Positions 60,937-64,000 of a stretch of DNA of 64,000 bases are shown here, piece by piece (the stretch's first letter is position 1; every line of letters starts with the position of its first letter). Position numbers and translations under genes: made by a program. The DNA is taken from the NCBI RefSeq assembly GCF_014302995.1, contig NZ_CP060295.1, forward strand, positions 6,439,501 to 6,503,500. Direction: 5' to 3'. Source of the DNA: Variovorax sp. PAMC26660. GTDB taxonomy: Bacteria > Pseudomonadota > Gammaproteobacteria > Burkholderiales > Burkholderiaceae_C. The notes below the pieces were generated by a model. It was not told where the DNA came from. It saw nothing but the letters and a program-made list of their open reading frames with translations, and made no database searches.

Positions 60937-62307
60937 TCAGGCTTCCAGCGCTTCCACACACAGCGTCACCACCGGGCCGGCCGCCTCGGCCCGCGCCTGC
61001 AGCGCATGCACGGCGAGGTCTACCGCGCTTTGCAATACCGGCCCCGTCAGCACCAGCACCTGCGGGCCCACGTCGGGTCGTTCTGTCGCCAGGACGACCT
61101 GCCGAACCGGTACACGCTGCTCGGCAAGGCAGGCCGTCACCGCCTGGATCTGGCTGACCGAGTGCACCGGCACGCGCAGGTAGTGCGCCGTGTGCACAGC
61201 GGCGCGCGGCAGCACCGGCAAGGCGTTCGTCGCGTGGGCATGCACACCCAGATGCGGCACGTGGTTTGCGGCATGGACCCCATCGAGCCGCGCCACGTCG
61301 ACCAGGTCGGCGATCACAGCCGATGCGGTCTGCTCCGAGCCGGCACCCGCGCCGTAGTACATCGTCAGGCCAGCAGCATCGCTCTTGACCATGACTGCGT
61401 TCATCGATCCATTCACGTGCGCCATCAGGTGATCGGCAGGCACCAGCGCGGGCTGCACGCGCAGCTCCACACCCGCCGCCTGCCGGCGCGCCATGCCCAG
61501 CAGCTTGATGCGATAGCCCAGCTGCTCGGCACAGGCCACGTCGAGGCTCTGCAAGGCGGTGATGCCCTCCACCTGCGCATCGACAAAGCGCAGCGGCATG
61601 CCGAAGGCATTGGCGGCCAGCAGCGTGAGCTTGTGGGCGGCATCGATACCTTCGATGTCGAAGCTCGGGTCGGCTTCCGCATAGCCGAGCGACTGGGCCT
61701 GCGCGAGCGCGGCGGCGAAGTCCACCCCTTCATCGCGCATCTTGCTCAGAATGAAGTTGGTGGTGCCGTTGATGATGCCGGCCACCCATTCAATGCGATT
61801 GGCCGCAAGGCCTTCGCGCAGCGCCTTGATGATGGGAATGCTCACGGCCACCGCGCCTTCGTAGGCCACGGCCACGCCCTGCTCCCGCGCGGCGGCGAAG
61901 ATTTCAGTGCCATGCACCGCCAGCAGTGCCTTGTTGGCCGTGACCACGTGCTTGCCGTGCGCGATGGCTGCCAGCACCCAGTCGCGCGCGGGGCCGGTGC
62001 CGCCGGCAACCTCGACCACCACGTCGACGTCGGGGTGCGTGGCCACGTGCAGCGGGTCGGAAGTGAGCGGCACTCTGCCTTGGACGATCGCTGCGGCCCG
62101 TTCGAGATTGCGGGCCGCCACGATCACCAACTCGATCGCCCGGCCGGCGCGGGCAGCGATGTCGGCCCGGTTGCGGGCCAGCACGCGGAAGGTGCCCGAG
62201 CCCACGGTGCCGATGCCGATCATCCCGACACGCAGGGGACGAATGGCCGCCCGATCGGTGTTCAGGCTGTGCAGGGGCTCGAGGGATTCAGCGGGTTCGC
62301 GGTACAT
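60937..62307 (-). CDS. hom: Homoserine dehydrogenase with ACT domain
   Basis: The 456-residue enzyme has an NAD(P)-binding Rossmann start (GMIGIGTVGSGTF near residue 27), EVAGGTGPA, HVVTANKALLA, the signature GIINGTTNFILSKM and GYAEADPSFDIEGIDAAHKL. A C-terminal ACT domain (about 370-445) is the usual site of threonine feedback. It reduces aspartate semialdehyde to homoserine. The ATG at 62307 has GGAG 6 bp upstream. No thrC follows, so this is an isolated hom. Its leader holds a Thr/Ile-rich peptide and a terminator, implying attenuation. Confidence 0.94.
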   Translation of the reverse strand: MYREPAESLEPLHSLNTDRAAIRPLRVGMIGIGTVGSGTFRVLARNRADIAARAGRAIELVIVAARNLERAAAIVQGRVPLTSDPLHVATHPDVDVVVEVAGGTGPARDWVLAAIAHGKHVVTANKALLAVHGTEIFAAAREQGVAVAYEGAVAVSIPIIKALREGLAANRIEWVAGIINGTTNFILSKMRDEGVDFAAALAQAQSLGYAEADPSFDIEGIDAAHKLTLLAANAFGMPLRFVDAQVEGITALQSLDVACAEQLGYRIKLLGMARRQAAGVELRVQPALVPADHLMAHVNGSMNAVMVKSDAAGLTMYYGAGAGSEQTASAVIADLVDVARLDGVHAANHVPHLGVHAHATNALPVLPRAAVHTAHYLRVPVHSVSQIQAVTACLAEQRVPVRQVVLATERPDVGPQVLVLTGPVLQSAVDLAVHALQARAEAAGPVVTLCVEALEA

Positions 62308-62321
62308 GGACATCTCCAGAC

Positions 62322-62354
62322 GAAAAAACAAAACCCAGCTGCCAGAGCTGGGTT
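62322..62354 (-). terminator. Attenuator terminator in the hom leader
   Basis: On the minus strand AACCCAGCT-CTGGC-AGCTGGGTT (perfect 9-bp stem) is followed by TTGTTTTTT. It ends only about 15 bp before the hom start codon, so it can only act on the hom transcript itself. Confidence 0.9.
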
Positions 62355-62381
62355 CATTCGTTCGGGGAGAGAGCGATACAC

Positions 62382-62425
62382 CAGGTGGCTGCCGGAACGG
62401 CCACCTGTGCGTGCTCAGGTGGCCG
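62382..62425 (-). promoter_or_regulatory. Mutually exclusive hairpin segments of the hom attenuator
   Basis: Segment 1 (62416-62425), which overlaps the end of the leader peptide frame, pairs over 10 bp with segment 2 (62398-62407). Segment 2 can instead pair over 8 bp with segment 3 (62382-62389). A ribosome stalled at the leader's Thr codons would mask segment 1 and favour 2:3. Confidence 0.65.
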
Positions 62426-62462
62426 CGTTGGTAATGGTGGTAATCATTCGAGCAACAACCAT
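62415..62462 (-). CDS. Thr/Ile-rich leader peptide of hom
   Basis: The frame encodes MVVARMITTITNAAT: four Thr and two Ile within 15 residues, both Ile read by ATT, which I would expect to be less used than ATC in DNA this GC-rich. It resembles the E. coli thr leader peptide and ends just before the hairpins and terminator in front of hom. The true start is uncertain: in-frame ATGs lie upstream as far as 62540, and none has a strong ribosome site. No function beyond sensing charged tRNA is expected. Confidence 0.7.
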   Translation of the reverse strand: MVVARMITTITNAAT

Positions 62463-62549
62463 CGCCTGCACGGAGGCAGGCGGCATCATGCAAGCCATGG
62501 AGGCTGCGGCGGATGCGGGGGTGAAGTTGTGGCTCGACATGAGGGCCGG

Positions 62550-62577
62550 AGTGTACAACAGGCGTTTTGGCGGTCCA
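62550..62577 (-). promoter_or_regulatory. Possible hom promoter
   Basis: TGGACC, a 16-base spacer and TACACT lie upstream of the leader frame, each matching four of six sigma-70 consensus bases. The site starts right at the end of aapM, so read-through from that operon is an alternative. Confidence 0.3.
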
Positions 62578-62579
62578 GC

Positions 62580-63635
62580 TCAGGGCGCAGCCGACAGGCG
62601 TTTTTCGAGCCACACGCTGTAGCGCGAGAGCCCGAAGCACAGCACCCAGTACACCGCAGCGATGAACAGGTAGCCCTCGAGGTAGAACGGCCGCCAGGTC
62701 GGATCACCACCGAGCGCCAGGCCGAGTGCACCCGTCAACTCGAACAAACCGACCACCGTGACCAGCGAGGTATCTTTCAGCGTGCCGACCACGCTGTTGG
62801 TCAGCGCCGGCACCACGAGGCGCAGCGCCTGCGGCAGCACGATGTCGCGCTGCACCGGCCAGCGGCCGAAGCCGAGCGCCATCGCAACCTCGGTCTGTTC
62901 GCGCGGCACGGCCTGCAGGCCACCACGGATGATCTCGGCCAGATAAGCCGCCACGAACAGCGTGAGGCCCGCGAGCACGCGCACCAGCACGTCGGGCTGC
63001 CAGCCCGCCGGCCACAGCAGCGGCAGCAGGAACGAGGCCATGAACAGCACCGAGATCAGCGGCACGCCGCGCACCAGCTCGATATAGCTCGCGCTCAGCG
63101 TGCGCACCACCGGCCAACCCGAGCGGCGCCCCAACGCCAGCAACAGCGCCAGCGGAAAGGCCAGCGCCAGTCCGACCACGGCCAGCCCGATGGTCAGCGG
63201 CAGGCCGCCCCATCGGCTTGTCGGCACAGGGCTCAGGCCGGCGACACCGCCGCGCATCAGCAGCACGAACAGCAGCAGCGCGCCAACCCAGAGCGGCACC
63301 AGCCACCAGCGCCAACTGCGCGGCCACGCGCTGAGCACGGTGACGGCCGACAGCACGACCACCGCGATCGCCGGGCGCCATTGCTCTTCATAGGGGAAGC
63401 GGCCGAACAGCATCGGCCGCCATTTCTCGGCCACCACGCCCCAGCAGGCGCCGTGCTGCACCGCGCGGCAGGCTTCCGCATCGGGGCGGAACACGGCATG
63501 CACCACGCCCCACTCGATGGCGTGAAAACCGCCCCACACGAGCAGCGCCAGCAACAGCACGGTGGCCAGCGCGCGCAACGGCGAGCCCCAGAGTTCGCTG
63601 CGCCACGCGATCGGGCCTTGCGCGACGTTCCTCAT
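62580..63635 (-). CDS. aapM: General amino-acid ABC transporter permease AapM
   Basis: The 351-residue permease has the AapM layout: N-terminal helix, a long periplasmic segment, then VPTSRWGGLPLTIGLAVVG, SYIELVRGVPLISVLFMASF, the EAA loop QAVPREQTEVAMALGFGRW and a C-terminal FGLSRYSVWLEKRL. It forms the channel for L-amino acids with AapQ. Its ATG overlaps the aapQ stop by four bases. The aapP ATPase does not follow; hom lies downstream instead. Confidence 0.9.
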   Translation of the reverse strand: MRNVAQGPIAWRSELWGSPLRALATVLLLALLVWGGFHAIEWGVVHAVFRPDAEACRAVQHGACWGVVAEKWRPMLFGRFPYEEQWRPAIAVVVLSAVTVLSAWPRSWRWWLVPLWVGALLLFVLLMRGGVAGLSPVPTSRWGGLPLTIGLAVVGLALAFPLALLLALGRRSGWPVVRTLSASYIELVRGVPLISVLFMASFLLPLLWPAGWQPDVLVRVLAGLTLFVAAYLAEIIRGGLQAVPREQTEVAMALGFGRWPVQRDIVLPQALRLVVPALTNSVVGTLKDTSLVTVVGLFELTGALGLALGGDPTWRPFYLEGYLFIAAVYWVLCFGLSRYSVWLEKRLSAAP

Positions 63636-64000
63636 CGCCAGCCCCGCAGCGCGACGCGCGCGTTGTAGCGGTTCATGCCGAAGGAGATCAGCAGTGACAG
63701 CAGCAGGTAGATCGCCATGATGATCGCAATGCACTCGAAGGCCCGGCCGTTCGAGCCGATGGTGGTGTTGGCCACCGACACCAGCTCCGGATAGCCCACG
63801 GCCACGGCGAGCGACGAATTCTTGGTGAGGCTCAGCAACTGGTTGGTGAGCGACGGCACGATCACGCGCAGCGCCTGCGGCAGGATCACGATGCGCAACT
63901 GCTGCCCCGACGACAGCCCCAGCGCCTGCCCCGCGAGCACCTGCCCCTGCGAGACCGACAGGATGCCGGCACGCACGATCTCGGCCACGAAAGCCGCCGA
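63632..64000 (-). CDS. aapQ: General amino-acid ABC transporter permease AapQ (C-terminal part)
   Basis: The last 122 residues are visible, and the frame runs open to the window edge. They contain FVAEIVRAGILSVSQGQ, the EAA loop AGQALGLSSGQQLRIVILPQALRVIVP and LTKNSSLAVAVGYPEL, all close to known AapQ. The N-terminal part and the start lie outside the window. It overlaps aapM by four bases. Confidence 0.88.
   Translation of the reverse strand, partial: SAAFVAEIVRAGILSVSQGQVLAGQALGLSSGQQLRIVILPQALRVIVPSLTNQLLSLTKNSSLAVAVGYPELVSVANTTIGSNGRAFECIAIIMAIYLLLSLLISFGMNRYNARVALRGWR

Follow-up and report, generated by a model that had tools for sequence, protein, structure and literature searches.

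The attenuator of the E. coli thr operon (thrL; Rfam family Thr_leader) is presumably the closest relative, by kind, of the element described here. In thr and trp attenuators of the classical four-arm type, the default is the opposite of read-through. For the trpL attenuator of Sinorhizobium meliloti, passages of the published account place the leader ORF at the RNA 5′ end, where it is leaderless (PMC7298713). The Corynebacterium glutamicum ilvBNC leader encodes a leaderless leader peptide with Leu and Val control codons, and the sections of that paper dealing with the leader describe terminator, antiterminator, and anti-antiterminator hairpins, as well as an H1 hairpin that does not prevent the terminator (PMC11857589). 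In Betaproteobacteria, the metXZ RNA element, as presented in section 10 of its source, contains a terminator, six conserved regions, and a possible pseudoknot, and has metX and metZ as its targets (PMC4239095).

We analyzed a leader that precedes a homoserine dehydrogenase gene, hom2, in a 64,000-nucleotide stretch of DNA from Variovorax sp. PAMC26660 (the window). An earlier note on this DNA, made from the letters alone, had proposed a Thr/Ile-rich leader peptide in front of hom and had known of no described thr-type leader for an isolated hom in this bacterial group. In our reading of the open literature, we likewise came across no leader of the thr type in front of hom in this group; an earlier description in a subscription paper is possible. 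The main text of a broad attenuator survey contains neither "homoserine" nor "threonine" (PMC2965389).

The leader ORF and its control codons

The features of the locus, all on the minus strand, are as follows.

62573-62578, minus strand: poor -35 element, CTGGAC, upstream of TACACT
62550..62555, minus strand: -10-like box, TACACT; the hexamer TAYRMT is kept in relatives
62415..62540, minus strand: leader peptide ORF of 41 codons (ATG 62540, TGA 62417-62415), probably leaderless
62430..62447, minus strand: control codons ATG ATT ACC ACC ATT ACC (Met-Ile-Thr-Thr-Ile-Thr), from a codon table of 62 sequences
62416..62425, minus strand: RNA arm A, overlapping the final leader codons and the stop; pairs with B
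62398..62407, minus strand: RNA arm B; its partner is A or C
62381..62389, minus strand: RNA arm C, GCCACCTGG; its partner is B or D (antiterminator)
62341..62351, minus strand: RNA arm D, CCAGCTCTGGC, most of the terminator 5′ arm plus loop; pairs with C
62331..62355, minus strand: intrinsic terminator hairpin (D:E), with a T tract until about 62322; from a terminator scan, folds, and relatives
60937..62307, minus strand: hom2, homoserine dehydrogenase without a recognizable ACT domain (Pfam, NCBIfam, alignment)

The ORF lies exactly where the earlier note had put it. Its translation is MSSHNFTPASAAASMACMMPPASVQAMVVARMITTITNAAT, and its C-terminal end reads MITTITNAAT-stop. An ABC-transporter permease frame, ending at 62580, is the upstream neighbor on the minus strand, and the next long frame downstream of hom2 is on the opposite strand, which fits the description of hom as isolated. 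Between the leader ORF and hom2, the window contains an intrinsic terminator, as an attenuator requires, and GGAG at 62317-62314 precedes the hom ATG at 62307. The 236-nt leader folds 5.3 standard deviations more stably than its own shuffles, and a 5′-trimmed piece of it folds into the state that combines B:C with the terminator. When positions 62200-62800 were scanned for sigma-70 promoters, none was reported at threshold, either upstream or downstream of the leader; the conserved -10-like TACACT (62555-62550) is located upstream of the leader ORF. None of 4227 Rfam covariance models, Thr_leader included, matched window positions 61000-64000 at E values up to 1, and the 41-aa leader peptide matched no Pfam or NCBIfam family at E values up to 10. 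The corresponding start is also that of two proteins in the database, 41 and 40 aa long; both are annotated as hypothetical protein, and for one of them Variovorax sp. OK202 appears in the source name. We rejected an N-terminal extension of hom into the leader (an open 567-aa frame), since the lengths from the control codons to the terminator span all three frame classes in relatives. Within the leader ORF, a GC-rich hairpin at 62482-62463 (CGCCTGCCTCCGTGCAGGCG) appeared terminator-like in the scan and is absent from L023; it is a possible polymerase pause site.

Removal of 8 duplicates over 150 nt reduced 71 sequences to 63 distinct ones. The control codons were described from 62 of these, L056 being left out because its run is two codons shorter. 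The run consists of six codons from a conserved internal ATG, and 358 of its 372 cells encode Met, Ile, or Thr. Across a mechanically chosen reference set of 30 long ORFs in the window, all rich in GC3, these three amino acids account for 12.2% of codons; thus, the run exceeds chance. The earlier note had proposed aligning the hom leaders of relatives, with the lack of a conserved peptide counting against its reading; the peptide is conserved, and with the conserved frame, codons, and terminator this supports a Thr/Ile-rich leader peptide before hom. Codon 2 is ATT in 58 sequences and ATG in 4; codon 3 is ACC in 53, ACG in 2, Ser in 4, and Ile in 3; codon 4 is ACC in 53, ACG in 2, Ser in 5, and Met in 2; codon 5 is ATT in 46 and ATG in 16; and codon 6 is ACC in 58, Ser in 3, and Lys in 1. 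The use of ATT for both Ile codons in GC-rich DNA, which the earlier note had pointed out, is indeed unusual: ATT makes up 12% of Ile codons (88/731) in the 30 long ORFs of the window. ATC, which accounts for the other 88%, occurs at codons 2 or 5 in none of the 62 sequences, and the sole substitute for Ile at these positions is Met.

As expected of an attenuator, this is a short ORF with codons for the pathway end product. Met, Thr, and Ile are products of homoserine, so sensing of all three is possible, and the composition of the run suggests, though it does not prove, that the leader senses Met, Thr, and Ile. As a separate observation, the Arg codon CGA just before the run (window 62450-62448) is kept in 53 of 62 sequences, although it represents 6% of Arg codons in the window's long ORFs.

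Where translation begins was approached by searching the 63 sequences for a TAYRMT hexamer with an ATG 5-13 nt downstream, regardless of frame. Both were found in 62 sequences, with a spacing of 6-10 nt. In all 62, this upstream ATG shares the frame of the run, and the frame stays open as far as the leader stop, giving leaders of 31 to 46 codons. The exception, L051, yielded no hexamer by script; by eye, TAAACT lies 7 nt before an in-frame ATG, and this sequence is outside the 62. As a control, when sorted modulo 3, the run-to-terminator distances split 20/17/25 among the 62, indicating that indels are otherwise free. As the ATG-to-run length is always a multiple of three and the run-to-terminator length is not, only the leader is held in frame. 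A transcript initiated at the customary distance from a sigma-70 -10 box would begin no more than a few nucleotides from the ATG, so the leader mRNA is probably leaderless and translated from its 5′ end. In the upstream part of the peptide, single-change codon differences were nonsynonymous in 378 cases and synonymous in 165 (pairs 75-99% identical). The upstream amino acids are therefore not clearly constrained, and it appears to be mainly the frame that matters there.

Alternative RNA pairings and ribosome position

The five arms can be arranged in two mutually exclusive predicted folds: A:B with C:D, which would allow read-through, or B:C with D:E, which would cause termination. Computed C:D energies range from -9.3 to -18.9 kcal/mol in 38 distinct pairs. 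For a partner-swap test, we added L053, which had no terminator arm in the 38-pair set and was placed by hand, giving 39 distinct pairs. Native C:D pairs gave -13.31 kcal/mol versus -12.73 kcal/mol when swapped, and 6 of 20000 permutations reached the native value, a count uncorrected for relatedness. Among 11 divergent pairs, 85 of 20000 permutations did so for C:D, and for A:B and B:C the figure was 1 of 20000 each, all likewise without correction for relatedness. A cruder first swap test, again uncorrected for relatedness, gave 62 of 2000 for C:D and 0 of 2000 for the other three pairings; its automatic terminator finder misplaced a few stems (e.g., L038, L053, and L054), and later analyses used a 3′-arm motif. 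C:D is the weakest pairing, with a mean z of -0.80 against shuffled D (range -1.93 to 0.24). The clearest single case of covariation is found on comparing L047 with L045, where C changes from GGCCA to GGTCA together with a change of D from TGGCC to TGACC, and B:C retains a G-U pair. In L031, the terminator loop region is two bases shorter and C:D is retained (-14.4). The terminator hairpin is conserved in relatives; the hairpins of L053 and L054 lack a proper T tract.

To model the ribosome, we masked all RNA up to an edge lying 11, 13, or 15 nt away from base 1 of the codon in the A site; the remainder was folded before or after addition of the terminator 3′ arm. Fifty-nine distinct sequences of the 63 were used, with L056 and three further duplicates dropped. 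At an edge of 13 nt, stalls at codons 1, 2, 3, and 4 of the run favored C:D in 57, 56, 54, and 44 of the 59 sequences. A stall at codon 5 did so in 18, and stalls at codons 6-10 in 2 or 3, with B:C favored instead in 55 or 56. The switch point fell within the run at all settings: between codons 5 and 6 for 11 nt, 4 and 5 for 13 nt, and 3 and 4 for 15 nt. By computation, then, and subject to the weakness of C:D and the equilibrium results below, the folds are exclusive and the choice between them follows ribosome position, as an attenuator with an antiterminator requires.

With the 3′ arm present and an edge of 13 nt, C:D beat the terminator in 38, 38, 42, and 36 of 59 sequences when the ribosome stalled at codons 1, 2, 3, and 4; with stalls at codons 6-10 it did so in no more than 4 of the 59. 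Equilibrium folding favored the terminator in 17-23 of 59 sequences even for the early stalls, so read-through would need C:D to form first. With the ribosome on the stop codon, C:D was favored before the 3′ arm in 17, 44, and 57 of 59 sequences (edge 11, 13, and 15), and the terminator was ahead once the arm was present in 58, 44, and 33. As a ribosome on the stop codon would favor C:D, fast release would be required. Without a ribosome, C:D was ahead in 38 of 59 sequences and B:C in 13 before the 3′ arm; with the arm present, the terminator was ahead in 34 of 59 and C:D in 25. Default read-through without a ribosome is thus likely in this model, but not certain, given the 34 sequences in which the terminator leads.

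Distribution among relatives and the second hom copy

Among 61 sampled genomes of the same genus (Variovorax), 39 contain a match to hom2 at 71% identity or more, counting a fragment in G060. The leader is present at all 39 of these loci (30, plus G032, plus 8). Over 150 nt, three loci of the genus have the very sequence of a named record: L012 that of Variovorax sp. YR216, L019 that of a Variovorax MAG, and L039 that of Variovorax sp. Root473. A covariance model built from 30 genus sequences, R1, found one real site in the PAMC26660 genome itself; a second, weak match is the opposite strand at the same place. In a sample of 250 genomes of the family, R1 matched 26. One of these, L058, was dropped as a tRNA by eye. 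The other 25 matches represent 16 genera, and in 24 cases hom follows immediately (tblastn showed this for 23, and the window is the 24th). At the remaining one, L048 (1501-2014), the leader and terminator are intact before a 114-codon hom remnant; across 60 residues, part of this frame shares 67% identity with the C-terminal region of a related hom.

Two hom matches at 1e-100 occur in 28 genomes of the family sample, of which 24 bear the window-type leader. The other four (G285, G202, G107, and G223) have a different Thr/Ile/Met leader before one hom copy: MRPQPIAITITTTTAQRDVAVGI, MRPPVRTLIAITTITTTAWCGPWW, and two GTG-started frames with STITMITM and AMITMITT. Each is followed by a terminator-like hairpin before hom, although the G285 fold is just 1.3 standard deviations better than shuffles; the runs of two of these leaders again include Met. 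This alternative design was seen at L070, L130, L132, and L133, at about 1300-1470, in two genera; in L132 and L133, the GTG lies 6 nt after TATACT.

A pattern over arms B and C retrieved 18 named database records, and a model, R2, matched the element in all 18. The records come from Variovorax, Acidovorax, Paracidovorax, Giesbergeria, Simplicispira, and Pseudorhodoferax, and from three MAGs named only Burkholderiales or Proteobacteria. At order level, among 399 genomes and under stricter filters, R2 gave no further hom site, and we judged L107 and L109-L114 by eye to be chance matches. Three weak R2 matches in two other families of the order (L105, L106, and L108, around 1500) are Thr-rich leaders with A-, B-, and C-like arms and no obvious T tract, directly before a thrS identified by family model; they may represent translational attenuation. 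In the PAMC26660 genome itself, at L115 (about 1130-1290), a short ORF, MTPRTTPQGFSGFFFFEGKGR-stop, with Thr and a run of four Phe is followed by a terminator-like hairpin and thrS (C1:5368762), which makes it a candidate for a further leader of this genome.

The same genome also carries a second hom, 55% identical to hom2 and followed by thrC, which the family model identifies as threonine synthase (229 bits, cut-off 167). This other hom (L002) has an ACT domain by Pfam, at 41.4 bits; the window hom2 has none. The difference extends to relatives: ACT was detected in 0 of 11 hom proteins with a leader (the window, nine with the same leader, and L070 with the other leader) and in all 9 of the hom proteins tested whose loci do not carry the window-type leader, L002 included. 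In an alignment of 32 proteins, the "D..GVL" stretch of the ACT-bearing hom proteins is absent from the window hom2. ACT domains commonly carry feedback inhibition. As hom2 lacks one, the protein sequence suggests that it is probably insensitive to feedback inhibition and controlled at transcription instead.

Proposed mechanism and comparison with known attenuators

We consider it highly probable that the element is a ribosome-mediated transcription attenuator of hom2, itself an enzyme probably lacking feedback inhibition, with a probably leaderless start, stalling at Thr and Ile codons, and a likely lean toward the on state by default; sequence conservation and the folding model both point this way. 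RNA polymerase would start a few nucleotides from the leader ATG, and the ribosome would load onto the leaderless 5′ end. A shortage of charged tRNA-Thr or tRNA-Ile (and perhaps of tRNA-Met) would stall the ribosome on M-I-T-T, leaving A free, so that A:B and C:D could form, no terminator would arise, and hom2 would be transcribed. When amino acids are sufficient, the ribosome would advance over A, B:C would form, D would be freed for E, and transcription would stop before hom2. With no ribosome, the RNA is predicted to lean to A:B plus C:D and read-through. The earlier note had missed the terminator, the five-arm switch, the second-copy hom without ACT, the probable leaderless start, and the Met codons in the run.

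Among other explanations, the one we rate highest, though still improbable, retains the attenuator and moves the start to the internal ATG at 62447, giving the 10-aa peptide MITTITNAAT, with the upstream ATG merely marking the region where transcription starts. That codon is ATG in 59 of 62 sequences, and the lack of clear constraint on the upstream amino acids would also be explained. However, three of the 62 have ACC, ACG, or CCC at this position, and none of the 63 sequences has AGGA, GGAG, or GAGG 4-14 nt upstream of it, whereas GGAG precedes an ATGT where hom starts in 60 of the 63. Moreover, nothing in this explanation would maintain an upstream ATG in frame over 31 to 46 codons without a stop.

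Considerably less probable is a riboswitch that binds a metabolite, or a leader bound by a protein, in which the peptide-like frame is incidental. Within the genus the arms are strongly conserved in sequence, which would suit such an RNA; the missing Rfam match at E values up to 1 does not, nor does conservation of the frame, the codon choice, and the M/I/T content upstream of arm A. The four other two-hom genomes, moreover, retain a Thr/Ile/Met run with a different RNA. The position of the hairpin between the permease gene and hom would also allow it to be a plain terminator of the ABC-transporter genes, with a separate hom promoter and no regulation, which we regard as the least credible explanation of all. 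Against it, a -10-like box and the leader precede the hairpin, the scan of 62200-62800 reported no promoter after it, arms A-D show both conservation and alternative pairing, and the element stays beside hom in 16 genera of the family sample.

More tentatively, and with rather less than even confidence, we propose that the element is a sensor of three products (Met, Ile, and Thr) wired in reverse, reading through by default and off only once a ribosome has passed the run; that it took over a hom paralogue without ACT feedback; and that this trade of allosteric control for attenuation recurred with at least two RNA designs. As one genome holds both hom (with ACT, followed by thrC) and hom2 (without ACT, behind the attenuator), the exchange of feedback for ribosome control becomes testable. 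A feedback-free hom with its own amino-acid switch could also be of practical use in threonine or methionine production. For Variovorax, Acidovorax, and their relatives, our analysis points to a probable attenuator of the thr type that serves a single gene and for which leader translation is probably needed for switch-off.

The earlier note had likened the leader to that of the E. coli thr operon. The likeness holds for the type, as both have a Thr/Ile-rich leader peptide, a terminator before a homoserine-pathway gene, and read-through expected on starvation. It does not extend to the predicted logic, since here read-through is likely without a ribosome at the run. Five arms replace the classical four, and the untranslated RNA would therefore lean to read-through; a single hom target, a long and probably leaderless leader, Met codons in the run, and the lack of an Rfam match are further differences. 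The S. meliloti trpL attenuator, as far as the cited passages describe it, shares the leaderless start and differs in being a Trp leader of trpE(G), in another group of bacteria, with another sequence and target (PMC7298713). In C. glutamicum ilvBNC, the H1 hairpin, as those sections present it, does not prevent the terminator (PMC11857589), whereas A:B here is modeled to favor read-through. The metXZ element is likewise a betaproteobacterial RNA with a terminator, in the pathway from homoserine to homocysteine; section 10 of its source mentions no leader peptide, and its targets are different (PMC4239095). The type of attenuator is thus known, and what is probably new is its sequence, its target, and its probable default-on wiring.
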